Assembly (NCBI RefSeq): GCF_030704535.1
Contig: NC_081810.1
Coordinates: 7,946,501 to 8,010,500 of the forward strand
DNA from: Vitis vinifera
Taxonomy: Eukaryota > Streptophyta > Magnoliopsida > Vitales > Vitaceae
Length of the DNA: 64,000 nt
Reading direction: 5' to 3'
The position numbers were made by a program, and so were the translations under genes. Each line of letters starts with the position of its first letter. Position 1 is the stretch's first letter. Below, one piece after another: positions 3,520 to 22,409 of the stretch. Below the pieces are notes generated by a model, which was given only the letters and a program-made list of their open reading frames with translations, was not told the DNA's origin and ran no database searches.

Positions 3520-6500
3520 TCATGCAGCAACCCCATGATTGAGGAGCATCTGATCGAAGTGCCAGACTCCTGCAAATTCATCATTAGAACTGCTTTTAGG
3601 GTCGATCAAAAAGAAAACAGAAGGGAAGAAAGACAGCCATGTATTAGAGCTAGATGAAAGATGGAGGGGAAAGGAAATGGGACGCCCAAGTTAACCAGAA
3701 ATTACCATATCCTTTGCCCAACCTTCTCAACTGAGCAACATATTCTGCTACTTTCTTGATAGATTCCACCTACATGTAAAAATATACATTAACTGTTGAA
3801 AGCCCTGCTTACAAATATTTGGTTGAACAATCCAAACAGATAAAGAGAACAAGAGAAGTTGCCTCACCTGCTCGGTCAAGAACTCACTTTCGATGAAATC
3901 CACCAAATGAGGGTCATCATTTTCAACAGCAACCTGTTAGTATTCAGGAAAGAGCAGACCTTAGAAGAAAAGCAGTGTGCTAGCTCACAAATGATGGTGT
4001 CAAAGCATGAAGCCTCAAACACCATAGCTTGGTACAGAGGGTAACTCAAAGCCCAGTTTACAAATCAAACAAACAGAAAAATCCAAGATAGAACATACAT
4101 TACTAAAGATGGAATAAGAGAAACACCATGGAGGAGGGTAAAGCAATTACTTTGTGCAAGTCCAGAAGTTTCTGAGTAGTTAACTTTTCCAGAGCCAATG
4201 CTAGCTCCATTGCTGCATTAATATTTGCAAATTAATACTACTATGCAAGAGATGAAATCAACCTCAAACCAATGTTTTACACTAAAAAAATCAATAACAT
4301 CTCAGACTAATTGCCTATTGTACTGATCACATTTTCATGAATTATAAAAGTATTGATAATACGCGAACATGCATCTCTGGTAAAAAAAAAATGTAAATAC
4401 TGCATCAAAATGCCCACACATAAATTTGCATTACAGAATCCCATGTGGATCCATTTGAACGAATATATCATTACTCTTAACATGCACAAGAATGATCAAA
4501 TGCATAGAAATCCAATGGCGCGTGATAACTCATTTAAATCACGTCCCAATTAGCACAAACACGCATTAGAGTAAAATGAACCGCTTCTAACACTGAGATC
4601 ATTAACAATAATAGTAAACAATGCAGTGAAATTTCCTACATTTTAGGGTCTCATCATCAACCTATCTCAAATAAAGATATTAGTATTATTCTACATAAAA
4701 TCGTGATTCTTCTTCCTTTCTGGGCCCAAAAAAACTGTCTGGGTATGCAAATGGGAACTTCCTCATGCATCCTAATGGCTGTTCCGGAGTCATCTATAAA
4801 CAAACAGGGGAGGGGGCATGGGAAAATCACATATACATTTCAGGAATTATCTCATCACGAAGAAGAGGACCAATTGATGAACCATACCATGCAATGCATC
4901 TCCCTTTTCATCATTATCGAATTCTGACGGTGGCCTCACTATGACCCGTAACTTCACTTTTCCTCCACGTTTATTCTAAAAATCCATAGAAATCAGCATT
5001 ACCACCCAATATATGTGTGAAGTTTAATGCAATGCAGCTAGCCAATACCTGGTATTCCATCAGTTTCTCAGCATGCTCTCTTTCTTCTGTACTTGATTCC
5101 TTGCAAAATCTACATGTAATCAAATAATGTGGTAGTCTAAACAAGTACAGCAACCAAGAAAGGTAGAAAGAGTTTTTGGTTTTGAAGAATTACTTGGCAA
5201 GGCCCTTGAGAGCAATATTATCTCTATCAAAATAGGCATACAGAGTATGATAGGCATAGGAGACATTGTATTCCACACTGTGATTGGTAGAACAAAGGCT
5301 AAGTTAGAAAAGTAAGCAGATCAGCATTATAAGGAAACCAGAAACCTAGCTGAAATTAAATAGAAGATGAAGAGGAAAGGAAATTGGATTTCTGTTGTGC
5401 ACTATTTGGTTCACATTTTGGAAGTACCTCTCTCACTTTAGAGTCTAGTTCAGGGTAACAAAACGGAAAATAGCAATCATGTAAGGATAAACATGAAAGA
5501 AGAATAAAAGCACGAAACACACACGCATACACACAAAAAAAAAAGGTTCAATATAAACAGTGGCTGCTTTGGTAGTCGTGAGACGTAGTCCTTTGTTGAT
5601 GAGAAAACATAGAAAAAGAAGAAAAATAAACATAAAAAAAAAAACCAAAACAATTGTATTCGAGCTAAGTTGATCAAGCTATTATGATGACAGGTCCATT
5701 TAATGTATGTTTGGTATCATTTTCCAAACTACAGTTCTCAACCTCTTAACAAATCGGAAAATGAACACTGCAAGAGCTTTGAGAATGCAATTTTTTACAT
5801 TCGTGTGAAAGAAAACAAAGAAGTCGATGCAAACCACAGCTTGGTGTTAGTGGAGGTTTAATTAAGAACCATCGATTTGAATGCATGTTTTATACCATTT
5901 TCCAAAAACAGCTTTCAACCTCTGCACAACTCCTAAAATGAACACTGCAAAGCCTTTTGAGAATGCAATTTTGACATTCATGTAAAAGACCTACAAAGAA
6001 GTGGAAACCATAACTTGATCTCGGTCTTATTCGCCTTGTTCGGATTCTAGCAACTCTTCTCTCTTTCTCTAAACATTTTTCTGAAAATCCTTCATTTTCT
6101 TTCACTTTCTCAACAAGCAAACAGAGAATAAGAAGAGAAAAAACAAAAGAATCCTCAAAAAATAGTCTCTATTCAACATTTACAACAACATTGAAGATTA
6201 GAAACATGAAAAACTCTAGACATGAATAAAGTACATAAAAAAGAGAAAGATGAATTTCTCTCTCTCTCTCTAAACATTTTTCTGAAAATGCTCCATTTTC
6301 TTCCACTTTAAACAAACAAACATGGCATAAGAAGAAAAAAAATCCAAGGAAGCATCTACAAAACAGTCTCTTATCTAACACTAGAAAGGAGAAAAAACTT
6401 TTCTGAATATGCTTCATTTTCTTCCACTTGCTCAAGAAGAAAACAAAGTATAGGTAAGAAAGAAAACACTAAGAATCATTGAAAAAAAAGAGTCTCCATT

Positions 6501-6894
6501 CAACACCTTAAACAAAAATGAAGATTAGAAACATGAAAAACTCTAGACTAGAATAAAGTAAATAAAAAGTGAGAGAGATGAACAAATCCGACTTGATCTG
6601 TTCATTGATGGCTGTTTCACATGGACTGGAGAACTTCAGACGAGCGAGAGAATCTTGAGGACAAGTCGGGACGACAAGACGCTCCTTCTTCACTTCCTCG
6701 AATGGATCGAACCAAGCGCCTAAAGTTGATGCCTTACCGGACTCCTTGGAAGCCTTAATCACAAACTTGCCGCCAAAAACATTCTCATTCCTCCATGGAA
6801 ATTGTAGAACAGTTGAAGAATACGCGTTCTTACGATCACCAATGAACGAAGCGGAGGAGGAGAGAGAGAACGAAGCAGACGACTTGAGCAGCAT
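3520..6894 (-). CDS. FER: Ferritin, plastid iron-storage protein
   Basis: Ferritin forms a 24-subunit cage that oxidises Fe(II) and stores iron in plastids. Eight exons, in gene order, are 6593-6894, 5194-5277, 5049-5109, 4888-4975, 4151-4212, 3868-3933, 3706-3769 and 3520-3569. All have GT-AG borders and give 777 nt or 258 residues. Eight exons is the usual plant ferritin structure. A Ser-rich transit peptide fills about the first 48 residues. Next come the plant extension peptide (DPFEEVKKE) and the four-helix core. Ferroxidase residues are kept: Glu103 (VEYN), Glu138 and His141 (EEREHAEK), Glu187 (LALEK) and Gln221 (TEQ). The C-terminus is [15 protein letters not shown]. Intron 1 (1.3 kb) holds decayed local duplications. 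The promoter carries two IDRS copies, so iron-responsive expression is likely. Confidence 0.96.
5700..6590. repeat. Decayed duplications inside ferritin intron 1
   Basis: Intron 1 is built partly of repeated blocks. About 140 bp at 5700-5843 recurs, diverged, at 5880-6023 (shared AAAATGAACACTGCAA and TTTGAGAATGCAATTTT). A second block around 6060-6150 recurs at about 6266-6340 and 6399-6470 (TTTCTGAAAATGC followed by CATTTTCTTCCACTT). The stretch at 6155-6235 recurs at 6488-6570 (GAAGATTAGAAACATGAAAA). The copies carry substitutions and indels, so the duplications are not recent. Confidence 0.7.
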
Positions 6895-7009
6895 TGTTAG
6901 TAAAACGAGAAAGCTGAGGGAAACTGAGAGAAGTGGTGATTGAAGAACGAAAATGAGAGTGGCATTGAAAATATGAGAACGCCAGGGGTTTAGTCCGTTG
7001 AGGATGAGA

Positions 7010-7015
7010 CACGTG
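7010..7015 (-). promoter_or_regulatory. G-box, proximal copy
   Basis: CACGTG within ACACGTGG, 116 bp upstream of the ferritin ATG. G-boxes of this kind bind bZIP and bHLH factors. It lies in the first copy of the duplicated block. Confidence 0.5.
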
Positions 7016-7048
7016 GACGGTTGTGATTGCTATAGTGGGAGGGGGCGC

Positions 7049-7062
7049 GTGGTGGCCTCGTG
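7049..7062 (-). promoter_or_regulatory. Iron-dependent regulatory sequence (IDRS), proximal copy
   Basis: Read on the minus strand this is CACGAGGCCACCAC. It fits the IDRS/FRE consensus CACGAGNCCNCCAC known from maize, Arabidopsis and soybean ferritin promoters, where it represses transcription when iron is scarce. It lies about 155 bp upstream of the ferritin start codon, in sense orientation. Confidence 0.85.
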
Positions 7063-7147
7063 CTTCTCGTGACGTCGCTTATGGTAATGTGTTCAAGATG
7101 CAACTGTAATTGAAGAACGCCAGGGGTTTAGTCCGTTGAGGATGAGA

Positions 7148-7153
7148 CACGTG
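7148..7153 (-). promoter_or_regulatory. G-box, distal copy
   Basis: The same CACGTG element, 138 bp further upstream, in the second copy of the duplicated promoter block. Confidence 0.5.
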
Positions 7154-7186
7154 GACGGTTGTGATTGCTATAGTGGGAGGGGGCGC

Positions 7187-7200
7187 GTGGTGGCCTCGTG
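7187..7200 (-). promoter_or_regulatory. IDRS, distal copy
   Basis: A second CACGAGGCCACCAC, identical to the proximal element and 138 bp upstream of it, about 293 bp from the ferritin start codon. It arose with the block duplication. Confidence 0.82.
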
Positions 7201-7249
7201 CTTCTCGTGACGTCGCTTATGGTAATGTGTTCAAGATGCAACTGTAATT

Positions 7250-8331
7250 CGGTGAAAGGAATATTCGTAATTTCGTAAGCATTTTTACCTTTTTTTAAAA
7301 AAATAATTTTATTCTGTTTTTATTTTGAATTTTTTAAGACATCAGATTGGTAAATTACGGTTATTATAAAAATTATCATAAATAATTTTCTAATTATATT
7401 TTCAATTCTAATTTTTTTAAATAGAAAATAAAAACATATTAGATAATCATATAACAATAAATAAAAGATCTATAATTCAAAATTTTATTTGTAAAAACAA
7501 AATGGATGATGCTAAATACATTCTCTTATGTCCTCCCATTTAATTGCCATTTTCAGAATACATGTAAGTTTAATTTAGCTTACTTGAATAGCTAAATCAA
7601 TTTCAATTAATTTCAATTTACTCGAAACCAATCCACTTTAGTAATTCTTGGACTGATCAAGAATCAATTCAACCGCATGTTTACATTTTTGTTTTATTTC
7701 TAAGGAATCAAACGCAAGAAAGTCATTTCTTTTCTTTTTATTTTTAACAAAACCTGGAAAAAAAGTATGGGATGTACCTAATTTTAAGAAATCTCATTTT
7801 CCCCCAAATGGAAAAGTTAAAAGGGTGTTGTTACTTGTTATTGAGGAGGAGCTAGTTCGTGATCAGTGAGTGACAGGAAAAAACATAGGGTATCATGATG
7901 CTCTTACATGCGATTATTTAAATCAAATTTTATAACTAAAACAATGAAATATTAAATAATAAATTAGTACTAAAAAATTAGGTAGACAAAATTGAAGGTA
8001 CTGTAATTCATGTAAGGATTCAAAATTCTGGTCTTTTCTACAAAGGTCTCAGAAAACAGAGAATTGCTTTCACCATCACCTTCTTAATGCGACTGGGGCA
8101 GAACTTGTCAACACAATTGGAAAACAACTCCAAACAGCATCATGTTTTCTTGATGCCGACCTCTTATCAACTGTTCACGGAGCAAAGCTAACGAAGAGGG
8201 AAAAAAAGGTAAACAAATGTACATAAACAGAAACTTTCCCATAAGATTTAGAGGTATTCGGGAGATGATCTTCATCCTATCCTAGCGTCCGATGATCTTG
8301 AAATCTAGTTATTCCAACACCTGCTGAGAGC
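7250..8331. other. AT-rich spacer between ferritin promoter and FLX-like 3' end
   Basis: About 7290-7990 is strongly AT-rich with no recognisable gene. From about 8030 the sequence becomes mixed again and probably includes the 3' UTR of the FLX-like gene, which is on the same strand as ferritin. I see no mobile element with clear ends. Confidence 0.5.
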
Positions 8332-18356: not shown

Positions 18357-21300
18357 CAAATTTTGCAAATGATGTACAAATGGTTCCAAAGTGTGTTTCG
18401 AGGTGGGGATCAACCACGAATCCCTTCCTTATGGGTTTCCAAATTGAATTATGGTCCATCCATATTTAGATGGGGGTCCCAAAAGCACTAAGATCGAATG
18501 TACCAAATTTAATGAAAGATGTACCAAATTTTGTGAAGGATGTACCAAGGGTCCGAAAGTGCATTCCGAGGTGGGGATTGGTCTACAATCACTTTGTTAT
18601 GGGTTTCTAAATGAAATTATGGACCATCCATGTTGAAATGGGGGTCCTAGAAACAGTCGGATCGGATGTACCAAATTTAATGAAGGATGTACCAAGGGTT
18701 CCAAAGTGCGATCTGAAGTGGGAATCGACCCCAAATCACTTTGTTATGGGTTTCTAAATGAAATTATGACCCATCCATGCTCAGATGGGGCTCCCGGAAG
18801 TACTAGGTTCGGATGTACGAAGGGTCCAAAAATGTGTTCCGAAGTGGGGATCAACCCCAAATCACTTTGTTATAGGTTTCTAAATGAAATTATGGCCCAT
18901 CCATGTTCAAATGGGGGTCCCGGAATCACTAGGCTCGGATGTACCAAATTTAATAACGGATGTACCAAATTTTGTGAATGATGTACCAAGGGTCCAAAAG
19001 TGCGTTTTGAGGTAGGGATCGACACCCAATCACTTACTTATGGGCTTGTAAATGAAATTGTGGACCATCCATGTTGAAATGGGGGTCTCAGAATCTGTTA
19101 GATCGAATATACCAAATTTAATGAAAGATGTACCAAATTTAATGAAGAATGTACTAAATTTTGTTAAGGATGTACCAAGGGTCTGAAAATGCGTTCCGAA
19201 GTGGGGATCGAACCCAAATCACTTTGTTATGGGTTTCTAAATGAAATTATGACCCATCCATGCTTAGATGGGGGTCCGGAATCACTAGGCTCGAATGTAT
19301 CAAATTTAATGAAGGATGTACCAAATTTTGTTAAGGATGTACCAAGGGTCCGAAAGTGCATTCCAAAGTGGGGATATACCCCCAATCACTTACTTTTGGG
19401 TTTCTAAATGAAATTATGGACCATCCATGTTGAAATGGGGTCCTAGAATCTATCGGATTGGATGTACCAAATTTGGTACATCCGAGCCTACTGCTTCCAG
19501 GACCCCCATCTGAGCATGGATGGGTCATAATTTCATTTAGAAACCCATAACAAAGTGATTTGGGGTTGATCCCCACTTCGGATGGCACTTTGGAACTCTT
19601 GGTACATCCTTCATTAAATTTGATACATCCTTCATTAAATTTGATATATCCTTCATTAAATTTGGTACATCCGATTTGACTGCTTTCGGGACCCCCATTT
19701 CAACATGGATGGTCCATAATTTCATTTAGAAACTCATAAGTAAGTAATTGGGTTCTGATTCCCACCTCGGAATGCACTTTTGGACCCTTGGTACATCCTT
19801 CACAAAATTTGGTACATCCTTCATTAAATTTGGTACATCCGAGCCTAGTACTTATGGGACCCCCATTTGAGCATGGATGGGTCATAATTTCATTTAGAAA
19901 CCCATAACAAAGTGATTGGTGCCGATCCCAACTTTGGATCGCATTTTCGGACCCTTGGTACACCCTTCACAAAATTTGGTACATCCTTCATTAAAGTTGG
20001 TACATCCGATCCGACTGCTTCCGGGACCCCCATTTCAACATGGATGGTCCATAATTTCATTTAGAAACCCATAACAAAGTGATTGGGTGTCGATCCCCAC
20101 CTCGGAACGCACTTTCGGACCCTTGGTATATCCTTCTCAAAATTTGGTACATCCTTCATTAAATTTGGTACATCCGAGCCTACTGATTCCGGGACCCTCA
20201 TCTGAGCATGAATGGGCTGTAATTTAAGTTAGAAACCCATAAGGAAGTGATTTGGGGCCGATCTCCACTTCATAACGCATTTTTGGACCCTTGGTACATC
20301 ATTCACAAAATTTGGTACATCATTCATTAAATTTGATACATCCTTCATTAAATTTGGTACATCCGAGCCTAGTGATTCTGGGACCCCCATCTTCACATGG
20401 ATGGGCCATAATTTCATTTAGAAACCCATAACAAAGTGATTTGGGGTCGATCCCCACTTCGGTACGCATTTTCGAACCCTTGGTATATCCTTAACAAAAT
20501 CTGGTACATCCTTTATTAAATTTGGTATATCCGAACCTAGTGCTTTTGGGACCCCCATCTGAGCATGGATGGGTCATAATTTTATTTAAAAACCCATAAC
20601 AAAGTGATTTGGGGTTGATCCCCACTTCGAATTACACTTTGGAACCCTTGGTACATCATTCACAAAATTTGGTACATCCTTCATTAAATTTTGTACATCC
20701 GATCCGATAGATTTTGGAACCCCCATTTCAACATGGAAGGTCCACAATTTCATTTACAAACCCATAAGTAAGTGATTGGGTGCCGATCCCTACCTCGGAA
20801 TGCACTTTTGGATCTTTGGTACATCCTTCATTAAATTTGGTATATCCTAGCCTACTGATTCCAAGACCCTCATCTGAGCATGGATGGGTCGTAATTTAAG
20901 TTAGAAATCCATAAGGAAGTGATTTGGGGTCGATCCCCACTTCGGAACGCATTTTCGAACCTTTGGTACATCTTTCACAAAATTTGGTACATTCTTCATT
21001 AAATTTGGTACATCCGATCCGATAGATTTCGGGACCCCCATTTCAACATGGAAGGTCCACAATTTCATTTAGAAACCCATAACAAAGTGAGTTGGGGTCG
21101 ATCCCCACTTCGAAACGCACTTTCAGACCCTTGGTACATCCTTAACAAAATTTGGTATATCATTAAAATTGATACATCCGAGCCTAGTGATTCCGGGACC
21201 CCCATCTTCGCATGATGGACCATAATTTTATTTAGAAACCTATAACAAAGTGATTTGGGGTTGATCCTCACTTTGGAATGCATTTTCAGACCCTTGGTAC

Positions 21301-21690
21301 ATCCTTCACAAAATTTGGTACATCCTTCATTAAATTTCGTACATCCTTCATTAAATTTGGTACATTCGATCCGACAGATTTTGAGACCCCCATTTCAACA
21401 TGGATGGTCCACAATTTCATCTAGAACCCCATAAGTAAGTGATTGGGTGTCGATCCCCACATCGAAACGCACTTTCGGACCCTTGGTACATTCTTCACAA
21501 AATTTGGTACATTCAAGCCTAGTGATTCTGGGACCCCCATTTGAGCATGGATGGGTCATAATTTCATTTAGAAACCCATAACAAAGTGATTTGGAGTCGA
21601 TCCCCACTTCAGAACGCATTTTCGGACCCTTGGTACATCCTTCACAAAATTTGGTACATCCTTCATTAAATTTGGTACATTCGATCCATA
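18351..21690. repeat. Giant inverted satellite array (fold-back) in the MULE
   Basis: About twenty units of 125-190 bp share a core (GTGGGGATCGACCCCAAATC, then TTATGGGTTTCTAAATGAAA) and variable numbers of a short GTACCAAATTTAATGAAGGAT module. Seven units (18351-19471) run on the plus strand and about thirteen (19472-21690) on the minus strand. Units fall into two types that often alternate: one has ATGTTGAAATGGGGG and ends CGGATCGGAT, the other has ATGCTCAGATGGGGG and ends CTAGGCTCGGAT. This gives a dimeric higher-order period of about 330 bp. A transcript would fold into a hairpin with a stem of about 1.1 kb. Confidence 0.93.
19460..19483. repeat. Perfect 24-nt palindrome at the array centre
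   Basis: The sequence around GTACCAAATTTGGTAC is its own reverse complement over 24 nt with no spacer. It is exactly where the satellite units switch strand, so it is the fold-back axis. Confidence 0.95.
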
Positions 21691-22409
21691 ATTTAATATA
21701 TGTTAAAAATTTTTTACATTATGGTAAGAATGATTGTCCTAACATATTCTTCTTATAGAACATGACATGTAAATATTTCAAAATTAATGATGGTTGGAAT
21801 ATATTCCTCCTATAACATTACATCAGGTATATGTACATAGGGTTCCATATATTGTGGGAATCTGGGCAGGAATATATTCCTAACCTACACTATGTAAGTC
21901 TTATGTACCAAACAGTTGTGCATGGAAACCTATTTGAAAGGAATATATTCTCCTTATGTGTAAGATAACAAGCCATTGTCTCATTAGTAGGAAGGAGAAG
22001 GTTGTGGACGTACATATGGATGTGAAAGGAGTAAGTGGAAGATACGGCTTGCAATGACTTTGTCACGACTAAATAATACCAAATGGATAATCAATTATAT
22101 GCATGATAAAAGTGTATAAAATGGGTGAGGCAACAAATAGTTCATTCCATATGTGAAACATTTACAAAGCAGCACACATTTGGAGGAAAAATTTGGAGCC
22201 TTGCTTAACGAACTCCACACCGGAAAATAGTTCAGTTTGGTAGGGTAGGTGGTGGTTGAATGTGTTTAAAAATTGTGTTTGAATGTTTGTTTTGTGTCAA
22301 TATTATAACATATGATTCGTAGCTCTTGCAATCATGTCAATCCACTTTGTTCATGCCAAAACCGTAATTTGAAATGAATTATTCTTATTTTGCAATTATT
22401 ACGAATGGC

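Follow-up and report, generated by a model that had tools for sequence, protein, structure and literature searches.

The putative iron-regulatory block upstream of a predicted ferritin gene of Vitis vinifera occurs twice in exact tandem in the 64,000-nucleotide stretch of DNA that was analysed (the window), and the reading preferred here, to which a probability of about one half is given, is that a fairly recent duplication in tandem gave this gene a second copy of its proximal iron-regulatory module, both copies lying upstream of one core promoter. The presence of the 136-bp tandem duplication in the assembled sequence is confirmed, and its parts are the following.

6976 to 7111, minus strand: proximal copy of the 136-bp putative regulatory block (repeat search, string test, paralogue alignment)
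7112 to 7113, minus strand: two-base junction between the copies, TC on the transcribed strand
7114 to 7249, minus strand: distal copy of the block, identical to the proximal one (repeat search, string test)

The perfect identity that the original prediction had read by eye is borne out by a repeat search and a string equality test, in which 6976–7111 equals 7114–7249 at 136 of 136 positions; the start-to-start period is 138 bp, the number of copies is two and two bases lie between them. The 401 bases from 6900 to 7300, compared with the 495.6-Mb assembly, gave a single full match, which is the locus itself, in addition to a 35-bp match on sequence C5. The repeat is the sole tandem array of the window with a period of at least 50 and a match of at least 95%; TRF applied to the window and to 12 further loci, which are a non-random sample, detected three arrays of this kind, of which one has a period of at least 100; the other two have periods of 52 and 56. 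The window also contains, at 18357–21694, long arrays of units of about 126–189 bp with a 21-bp subunit (GATGTACCAAATTTAATGAAG), whose consensus switches strand near 19.47 kb, so that two arrays face each other.

The repeat is located upstream of a predicted ferritin gene on the minus strand, whose structure is given below.

3520 to 6894, minus strand: predicted ferritin gene, 8 exons, 258 aa, with GT-AG introns and an uninterrupted frame
6894–6593, 5277–5194, 5109–5049, 4975–4888, 4212–4151, 3933–3868, 3769–3706 and 3569–3520, minus strand: exons
6593 to 6894, minus strand: exon 1 with the start codon

The predicted protein matches PF00210 with an E value of 1.8e-33 (residues 95–237, profile positions 3–141 of 142) and its best PDB match is "Ferritin-4, chloroplastic" (3a68; residues 56–255, E value 1.7e-93), as is characteristic of a plant ferritin including the N-terminal extension; the N-terminus, read from the translation, is serine-rich. 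Five intron-bearing ferritin loci were detected by a protein search of the genome, namely the C6 gene described here, three consecutive ones on C8 and a single one on C13, and each of the four paralogues on C8 and C13 matches the query in eight pieces. In the consulted part of PMC6002507, grapevine ferritins are assigned three to chromosome 8 and one each to chromosomes 6 and 13, the chromosome-6 gene being VIT_06s0004g07160, and the predicted gene at this locus fits it. A C13-type ferritin, VIT_13s0067g01840, is lowered in the roots of rootstock 101.14 under iron shortage (excerpt of PMC5214570). The search of the genome with the ferritin Pfam family gave no match at E<=0.001 among the 5 candidates scored, presumably because the exons are scored separately. 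The protein search also retrieved intronless ferritin fragments on C7, on C18 (five) and at C6:13.745M; the five on C18, at 19.11, 19.45, 19.54, 19.65 and 19.73 Mb, are spread over about 0.6 Mb and score alike (query residues 67–180, 51% identity, stop-free frames of 153 aa). These intronless copies were considered as a record of the ferritin 5' end and set aside, since, in the three copies compared at the DNA level (those on C7 and at C6:13.745M and one of the C18 five), every match starts within the coding region.

Each copy of the block carries an IDRS 14-mer, a CACGCGCCC stretch and a G-box.

7049 to 7062, minus strand: proximal IDRS, CACGAGGCCACCAC, 168 bp from the ATG (motif scan)
7187 to 7200, minus strand: distal IDRS, CACGAGGCCACCAC, 306 bp from the ATG (motif scan)
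7010 to 7015, unstranded: proximal G-box CACGTG
7148 to 7153, unstranded: distal G-box CACGTG
7041 to 7062, minus strand: proximal extended ferritin module CACGAG-N5-CAC-N-CGCCC-N-C (C6:7953541–7953562)
7179 to 7200, minus strand: distal extended ferritin module CACGAG-N5-CAC-N-CGCCC-N-C (C6:7953679–7953700)

The motif scan thus agrees with the original prediction of two IDRS elements and two G-boxes in front of one ferritin gene. Both IDRS sites are exact matches to CACGAGNCCNCCAC, which we take to be the IDRS consensus; a 14-mer upstream of a start is weak when considered alone, and, with up to one mismatch allowed, CACGAGNCCNCCAC occurs twice in the window, where 100 shuffles give an expectation of 0.03. 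In the whole genome, the IDRS 14-mer is present at 11 sites (2 here and 9 elsewhere) against 32 for the reversed control, and it is therefore ruled out as ferritin-specific in itself; genome-wide the 14-mer is unremarkable, and the ferritin signal resides in a longer module. The extended pattern CACGAGNNNNNCACNCGCCCNC occurs at six sites in the genome, all six before ferritins (both copies at this locus, one site for each of the three C8 genes and a single site on C13), and the reversed control gave none. Since the pattern was derived from these same promoters and about 0.9 chance sites are expected at even base composition by our own arithmetic, this clean result is supportive rather than strong. 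The module being found once before each other ferritin and twice here, the doubled element is a ferritin module. The heptamer CCTCCAC, given as the IDRS core in the excerpt of PMC8207140, is absent from the transcribed strand of the block, which reads CCACCAC.

The other ferritin promoters indicate which copy is the additional one. In each of the four paralogue promoters a single proximal IDRS-like site, with 2–3 mismatches, lies 198–213 bp from the ATG, and one C8 locus has a further IDRS-like site with 3 mismatches nearly 4 kb upstream; the proximal copy of the block, at 168 bp, is the nearest to this position and the distal copy, at 306 bp, is thus the extra one. The 136-bp block aligns with the C13 promoter with a score of 34, which none of 500 shuffles attains; its alignment with a C8 promoter is weaker (score 24, attained by 4 of 500). 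A G-box lies within 400 bp of the ATG in three of the four paralogues, the C8 genes, with another spacing from the IDRS, and in C13 there is none. The extended module is conserved in all four, the pattern having been made from them. The C8 and C13 genes are therefore similar to the gene described here in having CACGAG-N5-CAC-N-CGCCC-N-C before the coding sequence; in contrast, they have one proximal copy each and a diverged IDRS core (CACGAGCTCGCCAC, CACGAGGTAGGCAC). One copy per promoter, as originally supposed, is a usual but not a defining trait of IDRS-controlled ferritin promoters of the AtFer1/ZmFer1 kind, and the promoter with two departs from it. Upstream of one C8 ferritin start, at about 400 bp, a 56-bp AT-rich tandem duplication with 100% match is present (L039:5004–5109), which does not contain the module.

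The position of the core promoter determines whether the duplication doubled only regulator sites or also a transcription start. The candidate sites are listed below.

6968 to 6975, minus strand: CATATTTT, possible core-promoter position immediately outside the repeat; a weak candidate, with 3 mismatches to TATAWAWR, at a distance from the ATG similar to that of the C8 TATA-like sites
6963 to 6970, minus strand: TTTCAATG, overlapping CATATTTT, 2 mismatches to TATAWAWR
7027 to 7034, with a twin at 7165 to 7172, minus strand: TATAGCAA, rival TATA-like site inside the block, 2 mismatches

The scan, which covered three promoters, reported sites with up to 2 mismatches to TATAWAWR, a threshold that CATATTTT exceeds; as it listed none with fewer than 2, it discriminates poorly. 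In the C8 and C13 promoters the TATA-like sites are 80–102 bp from the ATG, downstream of the module, and this distance falls outside the repeat here; we infer from it that the core promoter is located at about 6975–6940, with two modules and one start. The designation of the repeat as a ferritin promoter block is accordingly adequate for a proximal regulatory block and too broad for the promoter as such, as the paralogues place the core promoter probably just outside. In a different arrangement, TATAGCAA would be a functional TATA element within the repeat, giving rise to two core promoters with starts 138 bp apart and to a longer leader holding an IDRS, a G-box and an upstream frame; TATAGCAA, 140 and 278 bp before the ATG, has indeed 2 mismatches to TATAWAWR and is a better match than CATATTTT, but neither it nor the TATAGC of the block is kept in the alignments with C13 or C8, whose own TATA-like sites are downstream of the module, and either start would set a 22-codon upstream frame before the ferritin ATG, which makes this arrangement unlikely. 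The upstream ATG at 6965 opens this frame, which terminates a few bases upstream of the ferritin start codon (6894–6965); a start inside the block would include both in the leader, and the frame matters only if transcription starts upstream of 6965. An isolated stretch of C5, C5:24426678–24426729 (L033:4679–4730), resembles the ferritin leader over about 50 bp, between about 6940 and the ATG; no match to the ferritin coding sequence follows it, and parts of the surrounding DNA recur on C7, C18 and C19. This match may hint at the transcript start.

As regards the origin of the repeat, the junction on the transcribed strand reads CGTTCTTCAATTACAG, and the junction word CGTTCTTCAAT (7109–7119) recurs in the leader at 6939–6949 with a spacing of 170 bp. 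Because of this recurrence, end joining or template switching at short homologies is proposed: a 170-bp duplication joined at AAT could have been followed by the loss of 32 bp between two CGTTCT, or a single event with two template switches could have produced the same arrangement. This history was fitted after the junction was seen, and it would be simpler to assume a 136-bp duplication with 2 filler bases, an alternative indistinguishable from either of these courses of events.

Perfect identity had been taken to mean a very recent event, conversion or an assembly error. Zero differences in 136 bp set a 95% upper age bound of 1.7–4.4 My at assumed rates of 6.5e-9 to 2.5e-9 per site per year, which conversion or constraint would lengthen; the age is thus bounded, and the event need not be very recent. 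The identity would also be expected if a single copy existed in reality and the second were an assembly artefact, but the 138-bp period is far below the length of long reads, the 21 contigs for 495.6 Mb suggest a finished long-read assembly, and the two copies have different flanking sequences on either side, so that an artefact is highly improbable.

The function proposed for the doubled module is based on what is described for other plants, according to the consulted parts of the sources. The IDRS is required for the repression of FER1 at low iron (PMC7247011, PMC3744851), ILR3 with PYE represses ferritin (PMC7247011) and bHLH factors of the ILR3/PYE group bind to regions that contain E- or G-boxes (PMC6345679). 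Deletion of a ZmFer1 G-box left the iron-excess response unaltered, and the rice response to excess iron was not accounted for by the IDRS, despite the enrichment of this element upstream of genes of the iron-storage type (PMC8207140). By extension from Arabidopsis and maize, the local tandem duplication would have copied the IDRS, the CACGCGCCC stretch and the G-box, placing two modules 138 bp apart before one core promoter, the second of which would add binding sites for regulators and no second start. At low iron, the gene would be held down by a repressor that acts via the IDRS, together with ILR3/PYE-type bHLH repressors, and iron would release both. The doubled module would most likely deepen repression or widen the response range modestly; such a modest effect is judged the most likely outcome, and neutrality nearly as likely.

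The copied stretch counts for a regulatory module, all six extended-module sites being located before ferritins. Short tandem duplications are common mutations, and the duplication may instead be neutral, in which case regulation would still depend entirely on the proximal copy, and the distal one, 138 bp upstream, would have no measurable effect. This is quite possible, if tentative: such mutations are frequent, the 12 additional loci contain two further arrays at or above 95% match (periods 52 and 56), of which one is about 400 bp upstream of the start of a C8 ferritin, and the identity of the copies shows no sign of selection; on the other hand, the copied part is the very stretch common to ferritin promoters, with its motifs intact. 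A bolder proposal is that the repeat is a promoter copy-number allele, which deepens the iron response of ferritin or shifts its set point and varies among grapevines with iron-chlorosis tolerance or leaf iron; this is doubtful.

Among known systems, the AtFer1 and ZmFer1 promoters (Petit et al. 2001, via excerpts of PMC8207140, PMC7247011 and PMC3744851) are similar in having an IDRS 14-mer upstream of a plant ferritin; in contrast, the module is present twice in exact tandem at the locus described here, and two copies are not described for AtFer1 or ZmFer1 in the same excerpts. In cucumber, an IDRS-like site lies 199 bp from the ATG and is similar to that of AtFer1 (excerpt of PMC3744851). 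The G-box near the IDRS, a trait of promoters of the AtFer1/ZmFer1 kind, is found here once per copy. In the open-licence literature searched, seen in part, no report of two IDRS copies in one promoter was found, which is no proof of novelty. A parallel is the repeat allele of the apple MYB10 promoter, reportedly described by Espley et al. in 2009, in which a promoter segment carrying regulator sites is multiplied in tandem as well; unlike the single extra 138-bp copy of this promoter, it is said to be a short minisatellite with autoregulation, for which a phenotype has been demonstrated.

The duplication is an ordinary kind of mutation, small and fairly recent, at a meaningful place and with a putative function. 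For locating promoters of this type in this genome, CACGAG-N5-CAC-N-CGCCC-N-C is a better handle than the 14-bp IDRS. If the second module is without effect, the repeat is an ordinary recent tandem duplication; if it alters expression, one- and two-copy haplotypes would be a clean natural test of how the number of IDRS elements and G-boxes affects the iron-storage response, in a crop for which iron chlorosis is a real problem.
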